Positions 45,876 through 63,500 of a DNA stretch of 64,000 bases are shown piece after piece. How positions within the stretch are numbered: the stretch's first letter is position 1; each line of letters starts with the position of its first letter. This stretch comes from Haliotis asinina. Taxonomy: Eukaryota > Mollusca > Gastropoda > Lepetellida > Haliotidae. A program made the position numbers and the translations under genes. The notes below the pieces were generated by a model. That model was given only the letters and a program-made list of their open reading frames with translations, searched no databases and had not been told where the DNA came from. The DNA lies in contig NC_090282.1 in assembly GCF_037392515.1 (NCBI RefSeq), forward strand, positions 33,159,054 to 33,223,053, written 5' to 3'.

Positions 45876-47487
45876 CACCTGGAAATTAATCAAGCAACAC
45901 CCCAATTTTTTCTATTGGAGCAACTTTGAAGTGTTCTGACAATCAAAATATGCCGGGTTGATATAGTTTGACACTTTTTTATTCAACAGACGATCTCTGA
46001 CAAACAACTTAAAGGGAAAAAGTATCAAGACTTTGCTTTATTGCAACGAAATCCAAATTCTTAAAACTGTCTTAAATTCATGAAAAAATGGACACAATTT
46101 ACTATTCATCCACAGACGTTGTTGTCAAGTGTATTAACACAAATGTCACATGGAAAGAAAGAACAGTCATCTGAGAGTCTGCACACCGACTTTCATCAAT
46201 ATCTAGTGTGTCCTCCCTGCGCACGCACCACCGATTCCAGACGCCTCCTCATTCCTTGGATGAGTCTCCGGATCTGATTCTGGGGGATCCTGTTCCACTC
46301 CTCATGCAGGGCAGCCGTCAATTCGTTGAGATTATGGACTGGTGGGTCTCTCTGCCTCACACGACGGCCAATAAAGTCCCACAAATGTTCAATGGGGTTG
46401 AGGTCAGGGCTCATGGCAGGCCATGGAATTCTGTCAATTGCATTTTGCCGCAAAAAATCATTTACAGCATGCGCCCTGTGAGGTCTAGCATTGTCGTCCA
46501 TAAATATGGGTCTCGTTGCCAGAGGATGGTTCTCAAAATGAGGTACCACAGCCCTGTCAAGAACCTCCTGTTGGTAACGAACACCGTTAAGGTTGCCACG
46601 GATGGTAATGATATCCAACTTGCAGTTCATGGAAATGCACCCCCATACCATAACGGAACCTCCCCCAAAGGCCACAGTCTCCTGGATGTTCCGTGGAGCC
46701 ATTGCTGTGTTCCTCTGCCTCCAGACCCGAGTACGACCGTCCACCATGTGCAGCAAGAACCGGCTCTCATCTGAGAAATGGACCTTCCTCCAAGAGGCAA
46801 TGTTCCAGTGCAAACGGTCATTACACCAGGCCAGTCGGGCTGCCTTATGGGCTGGAGACAGTCTGGGTCGCTTGATTGGCCTCCTTGCCCGGTATCCTGC
46901 AGCTTTCAGACGATTCCGAACAGTCCTGTTCGAGATGGGTCTCCCTGGAAGCCACTCCTGTCTCAACCGAGAGCTCGAGTCGAAGGACCTGCGCCGTACA
47001 AGTCTCAGTAAAGCTCTGTCCTCCCGGACTGTGGTCTTCCTGGGTCTTCCTGGTCTAGGCAGGTCTTTAACTTCATTAGTGGCTCGGTATTTTTTCAAAA
47101 GTTTTGAAATTATGGAATGATGTCGTCCGATTTGAGTCCCGATTTGTCTTAGAGACATACCAGCATTCCTCATGCCGATTATTTGCCAACGAGTGGCCTC
47201 TGATAATTTCCTACGTGCCATGACATTGAAATGAATGAAAAACCGAATGCAATCGACAACCTGCGCTTGTAAACACCCCAGGGAAAAAGTGCATTTTTCG
47301 AAAGTTGAGGTTAAAGCAATGCACGTGCGCTGTGCAAGCTTCACGCGCGTCATATCAACCCATGAAAAGCTCATGCTGTATGTCAATACATCAAAATTGA
47401 ATAATCAATCATCAAAATTACTTCGTTAAACTTTGTTAAGTTTTTATGTGTCTTTGAATTTGGTGTTGCTTAATTAATTTCCATATG
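45876..47487 (-). mobile_element. Tc1-like transposon, intact
   Basis: The left end CACCTGGAAATTAATCAAGC and the inverted right end CATATGGAAATTAATTAAGC both continue AACACC. Together they form TIRs of about 26 bp with 3 mismatches. TA flanks both ends (45874-45875, 47488-47489), the Tc1/mariner target. Length is 1,612 bp with one full transposase frame: a standard autonomous layout. Mismatches at the TIR tips may reduce activity. Confidence 0.92.
46196..47221 (-). CDS. Tc1-like transposase, intact ORF
   Basis: A 341-residue enzyme that would cut and paste its own element at TA sites. Start chosen at MARRKLSEATRW because this is the usual Tc1 beginning; the frame is open for 55 codons upstream. 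Residues ~1-110 hold two helix-turn-helix parts (MRNAGMSLRQIGTQIGRHHS and a second around NRTVRNRLKAAGY), joined by the AT-hook-like RPGRPRKT. The catalytic DD34E triad is complete: HFSDESRF, FMDDNARPH and WPAMSPDLNPIEHLWD, with 34 residues between the second D and the E. GGGSVMVWGCIS precedes them as expected. No frameshift or stop: the only intact mobile-element gene I found here. Confidence 0.93.
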   Translation of the reverse strand: MARRKLSEATRWQIIGMRNAGMSLRQIGTQIGRHHSIISKLLKKYRATNEVKDLPRPGRPRKTTVREDRALLRLVRRRSFDSSSRLRQEWLPGRPISNRTVRNRLKAAGYRARRPIKRPRLSPAHKAARLAWCNDRLHWNIASWRKVHFSDESRFLLHMVDGRTRVWRQRNTAMAPRNIQETVAFGGGSVMVWGCISMNCKLDIITIRGNLNGVRYQQEVLDRAVVPHFENHPLATRPIFMDDNARPHRAHAVNDFLRQNAIDRIPWPAMSPDLNPIEHLWDFIGRRVRQRDPPVHNLNELTAALHEEWNRIPQNQIRRLIQGMRRRLESVVRAQGGHTRY

Positions 47488-54506: not shown

Positions 54507-57500
54507 GTAAGTATTTGCATTCGACGTTAATTTCATCCGCCCGGAAATGAACTTGTTCTGATGCAGTTTCGTACTGATAGTAGTCGTGGACATATGGAGC
54601 CGATTCGCAAAGACATTCTTAAAGTACACATCCTCCGCTGTTACAAGTACGTCATGAATTTACTTTACCCCCATACTCAGTTTTACGAAACATCCGCAAA
54701 CCGACCTAACTAGATGACAACCTCAAGGCATGTAACATAGACGACTGAAATTATTTCTATTCCTGATTTCCATTAGGTCTACATAGACACATCTACTCTT
54801 ACAGCACTCGTGTTCTTTCTGGGTATTCAGAAGCATTTCTATATGCGGAGCTGCATCGGAATAGGGAATATTGCGTGGTTTCATAACAAATCGTGTAACA
54901 TGACGGCCGTTTTGAAGTTCATCCTCATACTTCCAGATGTTAGTTCTTCATTTTTTTGAAGACGAAAGAAAACGGAAATAATATCTGATTTTGATCCACC
55001 TCCGACTACAGTTACGCGTTTGAATCTGGCTCCAACATGGCGTCCTTCCCTTGCTGATCGATGGCATATTGACCTGTAGGCCATTTAACCCGTCAATTCT
55101 CGCATCTTTCTGACTTGACTCGGAATGGCACAATTGCTCGTGAAGAACGAACCACTTCACAACATTATAGTAACATTAAGCATTTATCAACTTTTATTGT
55201 TCAAGCCATGTAGTTTTGTGACACATCTATATGATCATTGTTTCATGGACCTGTGGTCACATATTTCGTATGAATAAAACTTGCAACAATCGAATCAGGA
55301 AGTATTCATTGAGGATATTCTAACTGCCCCTTTCGGAAACCTTCGATAGTCAGTTGTGGTCAGAAAGACCCATACACTCACGCCATATTCTACGACTGCG
55401 TTGTAGCACAATGTCTGTATTGTGTGTGCTTTCCCGATATGTCATACTTATCAGTGCTCAGCAAAGATGTATAAAGGTTCCCCAGTGAGTTGTAGTTGTA
55501 GTGTTAGGTCACTTTTGAGGTGTGTGCGGTATCGTCAAGTATGTGCTTTCTTTGAATAAAGGAAAATGCTGTTTTGAAAAGGATTTAATCTAAGGACCCT
55601 CTGTCGTCTTCTGATAGAACATTATACTCACTTGTGTTGAATAAATGATCCATCTATTGTTTATTTTCACAGACAAATATCGGAGACATCCTCTTGTCCG
55701 TGAACCCGCAACAAACGATCCCTCTCTATGGCTCGCGGGTAGGTAATGTAAAGTGCGCTACAATAGAGCGAGGCCAACATGCCGACTTTAGCTTAGAAAT
55801 ATATGACTGTTGAGTTTCTTTAGAAGAAGCATTATCTTCCTTTTGAGAACAAGTATGTGGCACCTGGTTGTTTACCGATTGCTTGTATAAAACAGTCTGT
55901 TGGAAGCCTATGTTTAGGTATGTGAGTTGCAGGCATCTTAGCCCTACGTTCGGCTTATGGAACGGGGGCCTTTCCCATACACGAATTTTAAAGCGCCCAA
56001 TACTTTGAAACAAACTTTACCATAGTCGAAGCGATACGATCGCATTTTGATATATGATTTCCACGGTGAAAAAACGTGCCCTGCAACCTATTTAGTAGGT
56101 TTAGGTTATCACTTGTTGGGCTTATTGTTTTGTGCTTCCTTCAATTCTGAAACAAACAACTATATATGCTACAGGTTGGAGATTTCTACAGAGATGTGCA
56201 ATCTGCCGTTAGTCAGCCGCCACATATCTTCATGACAGCATGTCGTGTCCTTCGCAACCTTCAGATACACAACAGGGATCAGACTATTCTTCTGTCAGGG
56301 GAGAACGGGTCAGGTGAGTCAATGTCGTATCCTTTGCGATCTTCAGATACACAACAGGGATCAGACTATTCTATTGTCAAGGGAGAACGGGTAAGGTGAG
56401 TCAATGTCGTGTCCTTCTTAACCTTCAGATACACAACAGGGATCAGGCTATTCTATTGTCAAGGGAGAACGGGTCAGGTGAGTCAATGTCGTGTCCTTCT
56501 TAACCTTCAGATACACAACAGGGATCAGACTATTCTATTGTCAAGGGAGAACGGGTCAGGTGAGTCAATGTCGTGTCCTTCGCAACCTTCAGATACACAA
56601 CAGGGATCAGGCTATTCTTCTGTCAAGGGAGAACGGGTCAGGTGAGTCAATGTCGTATCCTTTGCGATCTTCAGATACACAACAGGGATCAGGCTATTCT
56701 ATTGTCAAGGGAGAACGGGTCAGGTGAGTCAATGTCGTGTCCTTCGCAACCTTCAGATACACAACAGGGATCAGACTATTCTATTGTCAGGGGAGAATGG
56801 GTCAGGTGAGTCAATGTCGTATCCTTTGCGATCTTCAGATACACAACAGGGATCAGACTATTCTATTGTCAGGGGAGAACGGGTCAAGTGAGTCAATGTC
56901 GTGTCCTTCTTAACCTTCAGATACACAACAGGGATCAGACTATTCTATTGTCAGGGGAGAACGGGTCAGGTGAGTCAATGTCGTGTCCTTCGCAACCTTC
57001 AGATACACAACAGGGATCAGGCTATTCTATTGTCAAGGGAGAACGGGTCAGGTGAGTCAATGTCGTGTCCTTCGCAACCTTCAGATACACAACAGGGATC
57101 AGGCTATTCTTCTGTCAGGGGAGAACGGGTCAGGTGAGTCAATGTCGTATCCTTTGCGATCTTCAGATACACAACAGGGATCAGACTATTCTATTGTCAA
57201 GGGAGAACGGGTAAGGTGAGTCAATGTCGTGTCCTTCTTAACCTTCAGATACACAACAGGGATCAGGCTATTCTATTGTCAGGGGAGAACGGGTCAGGTG
57301 AGTCAATGTCGTGTCCTTCTTAACCTTCAGATACACAACAGGGATCAGACTATTCTATTGTCAAGGGAGAACGGGTCAGGTGAGTCAATGTCGTGTCCTT
57401 CTTAACCTTCAGATACACAACAGGGATCAGGCTATTCTTCTGTCAGGGGAGAACGGGTCAGGTGAGTCAATGTCGTATCCTTTGCGATCTTCAGATACAC

Positions 57501-60500
57501 AACAGGGATCAGACTATTCTATTGTCAAGGGAGAACGGGTAAGGTGAGTCAATGTCGTGTCCTTCTTAACCTTCAGATACACAACAGGGATCAGGCTATT
57601 CTATTGTCAGGGGAGAACGGGTCAGGTGAGTCAATGTCGTGTCCTTCTTAACCTTCAGATACACAACAGGGATCAGACTATTCTATTGTCAAGGGAGAAC
57701 GGGTCAGGTGAGTCAATGTCGTGTCCTTCTTAACCTTCAGATACACAACAGGGATCAGGCTATTCTTCTGTCAGGGGAGAACGGGTCAGGTGAGTCAATG
57801 TCGTATCCTTTGCGATCTTCAGATACACAACAGGGATCAGACTATTCTATTGTCAAGGGAGAACGGGTAAGGTGAGTCAATGTCGTGTCCTTCTTAACCT
57901 TCAGATACACAACAGGGATCAGACTATTCTATTGTCAGGGGAGAACGGGTCAGGTGAGTCAATGTCGTGTCCTTCGCAACCTTCAGATACACAACAGGGA
58001 TCAGGCTATTCTATTGTCAAGGGAGAACGGGTCAGGTGAGTCAATGTCGTATCCTTTGCGATCTTCAGATACACAACAGGGATCAGACTATTCTATTGTC
58101 AAGGGAGAACGGGTCAGGTGAGTCAATGTCGTATCCTTTGCGATCTTCAGATACACAGCAGGGATCAGGCTATTCTTCTGTCAGGGGAGAACGGGTCAAG
58201 TGAGTCAATGTCGTGTCCTTCTTAACCTTCAGATACACAACAGGGATCAGACTATTCTATTGTCAGGGGAGAACGGGTCAGGTGAGTCAATGTCGTGTCC
58301 TTCTTAACCTTCAGATACACAACAGGGATCAGGCTATTCTTCTGTCAGGGGAGAACGGGTCAGGTGAGTCAATGTCGTATCCTTTGCGATCTTCAGATAC
58401 ACAACAGGGATCAGACTATTCTATTGTCAAGGGAGAACGGGTCAGGTGAGTCAATGTCGTGTCCTTCTTAACCTTCAGTTACACAACAGGGATCAGGCTA
58501 TTCTATTGTCAAGGGAGAACGGGTCAGGTGAGTCAATGTCGTGTCCTTCTTAACCTTCAGATACACAACAGGGATCAGGCTATTCTATTGTCAAGGGAGA
58601 ACGGGTCAGGTGAGTCAATGTCGTGTCCTTCGCAACCTTCAGATACACAACAGGGATCAGACTATTCTATTGTCAAGGGAGAACGGGTCAGGTGAGTCAA
58701 TGTCGTGTCCTTCTTAACCTTCAGATACACAACAGGGATCAGGCTATTCTATTGTCAAGGGAGAACGGGTCAGGTGAGTCAATGTCGTGTCCTTCTTAAC
58801 CTTCAGATACACAACAGGGATCAGACTATTCTATTGTCAAGGGAGAACGGGTCAGGTGAGTCAATGTCGTGTCCTTCTTAGCCTTCAGATACACAACAGG
58901 GATCAGACTATTCTATTGTCAGGGGAGAACGGGTCAGGTGAGTCAATGTCGTGTCCTTCTTAACCATCAGATACACAACAGTGATCAGACTATTCTATTG
59001 TCAGGGGAGAACGGGTCAGGTGAGTCAATGTCGTGTCCTTCTTAACCTTCAGATACACAACAGGGATCAGACTATTCTATTGTCAGGGGAGAACGGGTCA
59101 GGTGAGTCAATGTCGTGTCCTTCTTAACCATCAGATACACAACAGGGATCAGACTATTCTATTGTCAGGGGAGAACGGGTCAGGTGAGTCAATGTCGTGT
59201 CCTTCGCAACCTTCAGATACACAACAGGGATCAGGCTATTCTATTGTCAAGGGAGAACGGGTCAGGTGAGTCAATGTCGTGTCCCTCTTAACCATCAGAT
59301 ACACAACAGGGACCAGGCTATTCTTCTGTCAGGCGAGGATAGGTGAGGTTTCTTTGAACTAAGCTAAAAATGCAAATGAAAAACCATCGGTTTCAGGAAA
59401 GACAGAAGCTGTGAAAATCCTAGTTTCTCAATTCGGGCGCCTGTCGACGACAGTGACACCACACCAGGGACCTCCACAGAGCGAAGTGGCAAGTCTGCTG
59501 AGCGAGGTTTGCAAACTTATGTAAAGGTTAGGGCACTAGGAGTACTCAACTAACCATTTCAACGTTGAAACAGAGTGGAGCCGAGTGCTCTCATCAATTC
59601 AGTTCATCATCGTAGAAACAACAATTCAATTTGCTTGATACCTGTTTACTCAAACACACATTACCCATGGTGGTTGTCTCCGCCATGATTCTGTGTATTG
59701 GATTCACGTAAGGTCAACCTTCGAGGCGTGACATTTTACTTCACAGTATTGTCCCCGAAAAAGAATTATGTATTTATGTAAATTATGTGAAATTAACATT
59801 TTTCGCTTGTGTTTGATACCATCTTAAAAAAATTCAAATACACATGTCCAGGCAATGTCCTTGTTGGAGGAGTTTGGTAACGCGGATGTCGGTATCAACC
59901 GCAACTCTAGCAGACACGGCAAGCTTGTGGAACTCGCGTGGGATGACGGGAAGCTCGTCGGAGGTATCACGTGATTCAAACGTATAAACGTCTTTGAAAG
60001 ACTAATTGCACCTTCAACATGGTTTGCAAATTAACTGCGATATCACCCCGAACTGTTTGGCGACCAAGTGAAACGCTTGTAACAGAACATGTTTCAATTT
60101 CACATCAACGTATTTTCAAAAGTTAATAATGTTTTCTTGTGTTTCAAAAGCTGAAATAACGGTTTGGGGTCTGGAAAAGAATCGTGTGATGTTCTCAGAA
60201 CCCGGGGAAAGGAATTTCCACGTCTTCTACAGAATGTTAGTTGGATTCGACCAGGAAATGCTCACACGTCATAGACACAATCAGTCCTACAGGTGAGTGA
60301 GTGAGTGACTATTCTTCGAGAGAACTACTGATTGATCTCATTGACCTATGTCTAAGGAAAACGGCATCCAACAGGCAAATACATTCTCATCCATATCCAT
60401 GACAAATGGCATCACTGGGTTTTGATGGTTCAATTTGTTAACTTTTATTTCTTTTTGTGGGGCCAACCCTAATGTAACATAAATCAGAGCCCCACATATC

Positions 60501-63500
60501 ATGCAATGTTTATCACGCATTGGTGAGTGGATTACGATCTGGGATCGAAATGTTCTGAAGCCTGAAGCAATCCATGCTTGTGAAAACTGGTGACCAAAGG
60601 TATCGATAAGATGATAAGCCTGCTACATTGACTGATGCTCGCCATTTTGTCCCAAATGGACAGATAGATGTCCATGATGTCAGTCACTGGATTGTGTGGT
60701 ATAGGCTCGCTTGTTTACAGACCGACGTCTTATAGGTGGGATATTGATACGTATAGCTTCAAATATAGGAGCAAAGAAACCCAAATACGACGGTATCTAA
60801 ATAGTGAGTTTAGTTTTACGCCGCAATCAGCAATATTCCAGCTACACGGTGACGATATCTAACTAATATAACGTTCTCGAAATCGCGGTAATTGTAAGCC
60901 ATTGTCCTTTGACATGCCAGAAACCTGCGATCATGGGTGCGAATCCCATAATTGGGTTTCTTGGTGTGTAGGTTTCACTAGAGTGGTAAACGTCTAGGAT
61001 TTGTTTCAATTCGGACTCTAGTTCTTTACCTGATAGACTGTGTTTAACCCAAAGCTTTAAACCAAACACTTCATTTTGAATATTCTCATATATTTCTTTC
61101 TTAGGATCTTGGAACCGAATGATGGGGGGCAGATATACCGCGACATGAATGATGCAGAGAAGAACAAGGCGCACTACAGATACCTCCGCGAGTATCTCAA
61201 TACACTCGGCATAGAACATCAGGTGAAACAAAATGATTTCTCCCTTTCGTGTGTGTATAAAACCGTCTTAAAATATTTCTCACTGTTAGGTTCCAAATCA
61301 TCTTTCATGGATTTACAACCTCGAGATCACTTCAGTCTTTGAGTATGGACTCGATAAACTGAAATATAGGAAATTGGCCAGCTATTACTTGCTGGCTTGC
61401 TGCGTGTTACGTGTGCAGTCAGAATGTATCGTTGTTATTGGCGCCAGTTAATATATTTAGGTGCGGTTTTGAGCATGTAACTGAATGGTGACTAATTTAC
61501 TTACTTAATTCAAATGTCTAGACGTTCCGATCAGGCCGACAGACAGCAGGGGACGCCATATTTGAAGTTTTGAGTGCATTGTTGCATCTTGGCAACATTC
61601 ATTTCGCGCCAGATCCGGAATCGGATACGGCTTTTGTGGCAAACCAGACGGAGGTAGAGGCAGGTGAGACAAGGAGAACTTTTGAAAAATTGTGCCAGAT
61701 TGAATGTGTCTTCGTCTAAGATTGTGTGTGCAAGCAATGAGAGAATTGCACGTAGTACATGGAAACTGATAAGGATGCAATGTAAATTCTTCTCAGATAA
61801 ATTCGTACTCTCTTGCCGGGCAACGTTAAGTATCAAATTGTACTCATGCATGATAAGAACGACTACCCACGCCATTACCGCCCGAACCACGACTCTGTGG
61901 CAAATATAACAACAAATAAAAAACTTCAACTCCAAAACTAAAAAACGAAAACGTTACCAACCAATTCAGCCTTGTTTCAAAGACATTTAGAAGTTGGAGG
62001 AATCAAACTAAAAGTGCTTTATGGTTCAACTTCTTTATTTTACAAGGTCACAACATTTCAAGATAGATTCTGGTCTCTTCTGTCTCTTCTGAATCTGTCT
62101 CGAAATGTTGTGACCTTGTATAATAAAGAAGTTGAACCATAAAGCACTTTTAGTTTGTTTCCAGCAACTTCTAAATGCCTTTGAAACAAGACTGAATTGG
62201 TTGGTAAGTCTTTATTATACAAGGTCACAACATTTCGAGACAGTTTCTAGTCTCTTCTGTCTCTTCTGAATCTGTCTCGAAATGTTGTGACCTTGTATAA
62301 TAAAGAAAATGAACCATAAAGCACTTTTTGTTCAATTCAGTCTTACTCTGAGATGTATAGATGACCCAGTATCATTCAGTATTGCAAAGATAAACATGTT
62401 TGACTGACCTACCATGACACTCAATGAAAGAACCGAGAAACTCCACTCAAAGTCTTGTCGGGATTTGTGCATGCAAAGAAATGAAAATAAATGGCTGACT
62501 CTGTACCACGCGACACCACATGGGGTTCAAGTTGAAGATAGTTTCAAATTCATACGTTTAAATTATACAAATTTAACGAAAAGTACAAATTTCCTCCTCT
62601 CAATATACATCGTAAAATTTTCAAACAAGGTTTCCTCGTTAAAAATCCGGTTAAATCATCATTACAGAATGTTTAGGGCAGACATTCGAAGGAATTAAAT
62701 AAGTGCCTTTCATTTATTTCAACGTGGTGCACGCCTATCTTATAACCGTACTTTCCGACACGTATTTGTTGTGAAGTTTCTGTGAGTGGTTTGTCCAGGT
62801 GAAGCAGGTCAGATTCCTCCTGGATGAACACCTGCTGTCATCTCTGAGTCATTTTGGGTTGTTACACTCCAAAGAATTTGAATAGGCCAACGTATCAGAT
62901 TGTTTTTTTCTCAGGTATTAATGGTTTCCATTTACAAGCCGACATCTCAAAGAAATTCTGACAACAAATGCATTCTGCAGTTTCGAATTTCAGGCTTGCT
63001 TGGCACTAAACATGTTACGACTTTGTATACCACTACTAAGAGTGACAGTCACTCAATTTTGATGTTAGAAACTTGGTTTAAACTGTGTAGGTTTAAAGTA
63101 TATTAAAATTAAGCGAGATACAAATATTTATTTTCGACATTATGCCACACTAGAAACTTATGCACCAATATCGTAGATGTTGCATACAAATGGTTGGGTT
63201 AAGTCCAGTAAAATGAATAGATAAAGTGCTTCAACATGCCTTTTTCTTCGGGAAAAAAGTATCCTTCATTTATGTCCTCTGAAGGATTAACATTAAAATC
63301 AGTATTCCATTTAAAATGCAACTCTTTTCGACAATCACGTGTGGTGTATTTTCTTACTTTGCCTTTCCTGTTATCTACGTTCCATTGTGGACAATGTGTA
63401 GTTGTGTGTTAGTCGATATGAGGCAAATATTAAAATGGAGTCGTCTTTGAGATAAAAGCACACATAACCTGAATGAATGAATGAATGAATGACACCGACC

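Follow-up and report, generated by a model that had tools for sequence, protein, structure and literature searches.

We analysed a 64,000-nucleotide (nt) stretch of the genome of the gastropod Haliotis asinina (RefSeq assembly GCF_037392515.1, contig NC_090282.1, forward-strand positions 33,159,054 to 33,223,053; hereafter the window), in which a myosin gene carries a tandem array of 82-base-pair (bp) units that begins inside the P-loop exon and runs across its 5′ splice site (donor) into the following intron. The P-loop exon and six neighbouring exons (55673-61663 of the window), each flanked by AG and GT, together give a single open frame of 276 amino acids (aa). This frame scores 171.1 bits against Pfam Myosin_head (cut-off 33.3), its top-scoring solved structures are myosin-Ic and myosin-Ib, and it holds both the P-loop GENGSGKTE and a switch-I-like NRNSSRHGK, which bears out an earlier sequence-only reading of the locus that had called the gene a myosin with its real P-loop exon at the start of the array. 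More motor pieces (L009 and L010) lie within ~12.4 kilobases (kb) past the window and, X-joined, score 123.2 bits in two stretches; by our reading there is an IQ-like piece among them. No frame damage was seen in the parts of the gene read, its exons being placed only in part.

Tandem Repeats Finder (TRF) reports a period of 82, 37.7 copies, 93% matches and 0% indels at 56240-59331. Cut in register, the array comprises 37 full head-to-tail units (56240-59273), each with 0 to 12 differences from the consensus, and a 38th from 59274 that is diverged (17 mismatches in register) and whose donor comes after 59342. The 38 tandem copies that the sequence-only reading had placed at 56240-59355 are confirmed, as 37 full copies and a decayed last one that ends at 59342. 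A 24-nt core of the unit (≤3 mismatches) is found 38 times in the window and 0 times in 100 dinucleotide shuffles. With head-to-tail units in the range of ~10-100 bp and high identity between them the array is a minisatellite, and its copy number is that of one assembly. The first unit combines 74 nt from the 3′ end of the P-loop exon with 8 intron nt (GTGAGTCA), so that the unit does start inside the true exon and cross its donor, as had been supposed; the acceptor (3′ splice site) at 59396 is not part of the array and stands in unrelated sequence. An exact-match search of viral contigs with the 82-bp unit gave 0 matches. In the species' own genome (1,143,192,487 bases or 1.14 gigabases (Gb), 159 contigs), a 241-base query from the array start gave 18 matches among the best candidates, the only ones scored, and all of them fall inside this array.

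The exact donor CAG/GTGAGT (the slash marks the exon-intron boundary) is present in 31 of the 37 full units (unit 1 and 30 of the 36 that follow it), and is accompanied by TAAG/GTGAGT in four units, CAA/GTGAGT in two and ATAG/GTGAGG in the 38th. This corrects the 37 further copies of CAG/GTGAGT given in the sequence-only reading. Pairing with the known 5′ end sequence of U1 amounts to -12.3 kcal/mol for CAG/GTGAGT, -10.7 for TAAG/GTGAGT, -5.7 for CAA/GTGAGT and -10.3 for the donor of the 38th copy; from the remainder of the window, ~0.4 sites at -12 kcal/mol or better are expected per 3 kb. The idea that the copies encode most of the P-loop needs correcting too: 14 of 37 units keep the P-loop codons (GGGGAGAACGGGTCAG) unchanged, and the first P-loop glycine is changed to arginine in 20 of 37; serine is changed to a stop in 4 of 37. 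Eighteen sites vary among units 1-37, and 13 of these alter the residue encoded by unit 1 (one to a stop); the change at the exon's final base, which is among the 13, was scored on the unspliced codon. All 8 intronic bases of the unit are invariant across the 37 units, an outcome with P 0.12 by chance given 18 variable sites in 82, and for that reason we rejected constraint on the donor bases of the copies as not shown. The downstream copies look like intron sequence, with no sign of protein-level constraint.

The variants fall into an irregular block pattern, in which blocks of four units are repeated, and are not exact repeats. Units 1-4 differ from units 11-14 at 2 of 328 nt; at a lag of four, 7 of 33 unit pairs are identical, with a mean of 3.39 differences vs 4.86 over all pairs; and the final, 38th copy is the most diverged of the array. 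These relationships, together with the closeness of unit 1 to unit 11, imply growth by blocks, and the likeness of units 1-4 to units 11-14 implies that the coding copy itself is part of a copied (or converted) block. As we read the sequence, the array is one that grew from the myosin gene itself, by blocks, and the earlier proposal that it derived from its own gene is upheld by a first unit made of exon end and donor. The features of the locus are collected in Table 1.

Table 1. Exons of the myosin gene and parts of the array, in window coordinates
Feature	Position	Strand	Basis and remarks
Preceding myosin exon, TNIGDILLSVNPQQTIPLYGSR	55673..55738	+	Joined open frame
Myosin P-loop exon, 139 nt, ends in phase 1, VGDFYRDV...LLSGENGSG	56175..56313	+	AG and GT bounds, open frame, Pfam with neighbours
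Unit 1, coding copy	56240..56321	+	Register cut; closest unit is 11 (1 difference), vs unit 2 (8 differences)
Intron after P-loop exon	56314..59396	+	3083 nt with first donor; 54 nt with last-copy donor
Units 2-37, intronic copies of exon end with donor	56322..59273	+	Register cut, unit comparison
Unit 38, decayed final copy, end ATAG/GTGAGG	59274..59342	+	Register cut, donor scan
Next exon, G/GKTEAVKILVSQF..., with P-loop lysine and threonine	59397..59506	+	Joined open frame
Myosin exon, switch-I-like NRNSSRHGK	59852..59963	+	Joined frame; alignment to myosin-Ic
Myosin exon, ...PGERNFHVFYRMLVG...	60151..60292	+	Joined frame; structure alignment
Myosin exon	61105..61222	+	Joined open frame
Myosin exon, ...IFEVLSALLHLGNIHF...	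61522..61663	+	Joined frame; structure alignment

The donor of the exon at 60151-60292 is itself a short (GTGA) run, GTGAGTGAGTGAGTGA, at window positions 60293-60308. Long open frames that resemble Tc1/mariner transposases by eye lie at window positions 46196-47404 and at L012:8479-9504, both on the minus strand.

Judging from their sequences, like-built arrays appear to be present in several other genes of this genome, so the myosin array is not the peculiarity of a single gene for which it had been taken. We searched the genome with a pattern in which a word recurs three times at array spacing; its matches overlap, and many come from one array. The donor words CAGGTGAGT and CAGGTAAGT gave 540 matches (79 with the word backwards) and 231 (35 backwards), and the non-donor words GGATGCAGT and ATCTGCATT gave 113 (66 backwards) and 74 (121 backwards). 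Fourteen CAGGTGAGT loci could be separated by eye among the matches listed, which extend to C2:51.83 megabases (Mb). On C1 and on C2 to that point, the counts by locus are 14 for CAGGTGAGT, 4 for CAGGTAAGT, 4 for GGATGCAGT and 3 for ATCTGCATT, and there is thus a surplus by locus for CAGGTGAGT only. Donor-word loci were examined at the 5′ edge of the donor strand only, and the edges of GGATGCAGT and of the other sets were scanned unevenly for acceptors.

A locus was read as exon-seeded where an exon that looks coding ends at the first donor and has its last part repeated in the units. By this reading 7 of the 14 CAGGTGAGT loci are exon-seeded (L067, L068, L071, L073, L074, L076 and L077); L067 has GTGGGT as its exon donor, L073 has a diverged exon copy situated a little ahead of the TRF edge, and in L076 only the last exon bases recur in the units. 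Four of the 7 CAGGTAAGT loci listed on C1-C2 look exon-seeded as well (L085, L087, L088 and L091), none with an exon over the Pfam cut-off. The same build appears in 2 of 5 GGATGCAGT loci on C1-C2 (L079 and L082), though that word was picked without a donor, and GGATGCAGT is therefore no clean negative control. This makes 13 further donor-seeded arrays, and 5 of the 13 exons pass a Pfam cut-off: four in the CAGGTGAGT set (Deltex C-terminal, 28.2 vs 25; ankyrin, 23.5 vs 21.1; IBR at two neighbouring loci, 44.4 and 42.2 vs 24.3), and the ApeC exon of L079 (31.4 vs 26.5), which is followed by 43 units of 41 bp. The donors of these Deltex C-terminal, ankyrin, IBR (two) and ApeC exons head minisatellites (L071, L073, L076, L077 and L079). 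The exon of L082 is cysteine-rich, looks like Ly6 by eye and has no Pfam match that reaches the cut-off.

At the 11 donor-word loci scored, a frame read on beyond the first donor runs into a stop after 1-87 nt, and the number of copies in the stretches read ranges from ~2 (L073) to 43 (L079). We also observed that none of the 14 donor-seeded arrays, the myosin array included, has a unit length divisible by 3 (P 0.003 if each had a chance of 1/3), a result seen after the fact, in a sample where the L076 unit is irregular and L076 neighbours L077, and where arrays with units of 3n may be taken for protein repeats. The ATCTGCATT set held 14 loci among the matches listed, of which one was read (L092, C2:2064305-2067463); it was rejected as a donor array and not counted, being an open protein repeat of 783 aa without a stop. 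Its 75-bp repeat, at 30.9 copies in the stretch read, has its first unit after an acceptor-like site, and its units hold GTATGT.

We propose, with a probability of about 0.7, that the myosin array is a minisatellite that began as a tandem duplication spanning a 5′ splice site and expanded in blocks, with the first donor used. The founding duplication, which took in the P-loop exon's end with the 8 intron bases next to it, would have placed a second donor inside the intron, and block duplication (~4 units at a time) with homogenisation would then have produced the 37 full copies. The 5′-most copy would stay the exon because it alone adjoins the exon start and acceptor, and because its donor alone gives a working motor: by computation, extending the exon to the second donor shifts the frame, and extending it to donors 3-8 or 37 brings in an internal stop, which from unit 3 on sits at the end of unit 2 (donors 2-8 and 37 were scored). 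The array would persist since its 5′-most copy still serves as the exon donor, and the downstream copies would be tolerated since recognition of the first donor presumably defines the exon ahead of the rest or in their place. As read from our sample, further exon ends seem to have gone through this process too, which would make the myosin array one of a class. This mechanism predicts a polarity, in that duplications spanning a donor should be more tolerable than those spanning an acceptor, because across a donor the first copy keeps its natural context, and across an acceptor the first copy would be the wrong one.

Several points weigh against this proposal. Use of the first donor is something we infer from sequence, and the classical preference for intron-proximal donors, with 31 equal donors to choose from, predicts the use of a late copy. 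The later donors are not hidden by RNA structure either, an explanation that is ruled out for units 4-6, whose RNA is less folded than its shuffles (none of 200 shuffles folds less well). Among the other arrays, those with CAGGTAAGT are not commoner by locus than those of the two non-donor words (4 vs 4 and 3). No clear exon was found in 7 of the 14 CAGGTGAGT loci (L064, L065, L066, L069, L070, L072 and L075), and such an exon is missing from 3 of the 7 CAGGTAAGT loci (L086, where the array fills the stretch, L089 and L090) and from 3 of the 5 GGATGCAGT loci; 8 of the 13 other arrays are called from an open frame and sequence, their exons having no Pfam match over the cut-off. A wider claim strikes us as doubtful: that 5′ splice sites are favoured birthplaces of minisatellites in this genome, since a first copy that goes on working would let exon ends seed arrays of strong U1 sites time and again, and that these arrays would act on exon definition and RNA output according to copy number, as a mutable splicing dial set by length in many genes.

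U1 protects long introns from early polyadenylation, and the downstream donors, left unspliced, could serve as a landing platform that binds U1 small nuclear ribonucleoprotein (snRNP) and either strengthens an exon with a poor acceptor or blocks early polyadenylation. The acceptor of the P-loop exon is pyrimidine-poor (8 of 17), and the copies are strong U1 sites in little-folded RNA. In human PAH exon 11, U1 binding downstream of the natural donor enhances exon definition (PMC5933811; this and the other reports cited are described from their accessible portions), and by that analogy the array may help rather than hinder exon definition. PAH exon 11 resembles the myosin gene in having a U1-binding sequence downstream of its natural donor and differs from it in having one intronic element instead of dozens of perfect donors. 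The invariance of the 8 intronic bases, at P 0.12, shows no constraint, and we consider a platform of this kind unlikely.

The sequence-only reading had suggested noisy splicing or a length-dependent switch. In such a switch, later donors or 49-nt mini-exons would be used according to copy number; frameshift and mRNA decay would then reduce the amount of motor made, and three mini-exons would give an in-frame, longer motor. Some of the data fit: 30 of the 36 further full units equal the real donor in U1 pairing, and an acceptor-like site stands directly 5′ of the 49-nt stretch in 38 copies, either TTCAG or ATCAG where TTCAG alone had been described. These sites have 12-13 pyrimidines in 17, which is richer than 4 of the gene's seven real acceptors (8-14). 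The arithmetic behind the idea also holds, since 49 and 82 are not multiples of 3, no single non-adjacent mini-exon (0/35) and no pair (0/561) leaves the frame open, and 5275 of 5456 non-adjacent triples do, with 2456 restoring GENGSGKTE and the downstream frame. However, only 33 nt separate a donor from the next mini-exon acceptor, a distance that we take to be too short for an animal intron and that is why adjacent units were left out of these sets; the P-loop glycine is replaced in 20 of 37 copies; and the 49-nt stretch is open in the copies by descent from a single ancestor, so that they are not independent evidence. Given the 33-nt gap and the 13 of 18 variable sites that change the protein, the switch is unsupported, as is noisy splicing, and we regard it, longer motor included, as improbable.

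The P-loop intron could itself have arisen by tandem duplication, with the array as its remnant, a documented route of intron gain (PMC4974935, PMC2891723). We read 10 other distinct myosin P-loop exons in this genome (L043, L044, L045 with its near-identical copy L046, and L047-L053). The P-loop is unsplit by an intron in 9 of the 10, and the intron of L052 starts 5 nt further on, so that among those read the intron position is special to the array-bearing gene; the comparison is one of paralogues, not orthologues, at 37-44% identity over the matched part. Intron birth is opposed by the acceptor at 59396, outside the array, since the copies then do not supply both splice sites, and by the presence in the unit of the 8 bases GTGAGTCA, which are absent from coding sequence and make the donor seem older than the duplication. 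We give this origin low odds. An assembly artefact, with the copy number inflated or collapsed, is very improbable in an 89-Mb contig of a 159-contig, 1.14-Gb assembly, with unit variants in irregular blocks rather than exact repeats and like-built arrays at 13 further loci, and tandem duplicated (mutually exclusive) exons were rejected because the repeat takes in no more than the final 74 of the exon's 139 nt, with the glycine-to-arginine change in 20 of 37 copies and stops in 4 of 37.

The best-scoring relatives of the array-bearing motor include L043, L044 and L047. Exons matching PF03142 (chitin synthase) lie 26, 26 and 67 kb downstream of these three on the same strand (C3:75.20, 75.32 and 6.65 Mb), and the three are, from this arrangement, probably myosin-chitin synthases, which are known from lophotrochozoans (PMC3942024). 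We rejected the same identity for the array gene (C3:33.2 Mb), as no PF03142 match lies nearby: it has 0 among the 40 PF03142 matches listed, and the open reading frames of the next 40 kb were checked for chitin synthase by eye, a check that a split or weak exon could escape. Another of the myosins, L050 (GRSGSGKT; C1:59484700-59487240, minus strand), carries decayed repeats of its donor region, ~26 bp long, immediately past the donor; these were found by a pattern with ≤3 substitutions and are not reported by TRF at score 40. They are perhaps an old stage of the same process.

Dscam and insect muscle myosin are familiar cases of mutually exclusive or tandem exon duplication. Like them, the array repeats exon sequence within a gene, and in a myosin, but its copies lack the 5′ part of the exon and its acceptor, and more than half have a damaged P-loop codon. 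In its tandem 82-bp units, block duplications and decayed edge copy it is like an intronic minisatellite or variable number tandem repeat, and it differs from one in that unit 1 is the end of a coding exon and nearly every unit has a functional-looking donor. CeRep25B of C. elegans, a minisatellite linked to multiple alternative splicing that is over-represented near alternative splicing regions and carries short motifs (PMC4039745), likewise lies near splicing decisions, and in the accessible text it is not described as derived from an adjoining exon, as the myosin array is. The intronic minisatellites of earthworm metallothionein (PMC12783039) are, in the portion available, presented without an exon-end origin.

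The closest parallels are tandem duplications across an exon-intron boundary that gave rise to a new intron or splice site, as in potato RdRp, with vertebrate ATP2A1 and the fission-yeast genes SPOG_01682 and SOCG_00815 cited as further cases (PMC4974935). In the two fission-yeast genes there are several tandem 24-bp AGGT copies, with the intron across four and two of them; these were the only multi-copy splice-signal duplications across an intron that our search found in the literature available to us. As in the myosin array, the duplication spans the exon boundary and the copies inherit splice signals. Unlike it, those cases involve one or a few copies and the making of a new intron, whereas the myosin array has 37 full copies and an acceptor from outside, and its type seems to be present in several genes. 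The accessible literature searched gave no report of long arrays of donors as a feature that recurs in a genome, and a text search of the literature with the P-loop string gave no match. As far as we have seen, then, the kind of event is known, and the scale and recurrence of donor-seeded arrays are new.

Dozens of near-identical donors after one exon, and the like arrays that other genes seem to have, constitute a natural test of the rule of donor choice, since choice among equal donors has mostly been studied on engineered site pairs. The candidate rules are that the donor nearest the exon's acceptor is taken, or the one nearest the next exon, or the first transcribed, and here the correct choice is essential for the ATP-binding loop. 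Because the intron-proximal rule predicts use opposite to that which we propose, RNA reads from this locus would be informative. To our mind the seeding of arrays by donors in several genes is of more interest than a mini-exon switch: the arrays suggest that minisatellites can originate from exon ends, and this would tie the birth of repeats to the evolution of splice sites.

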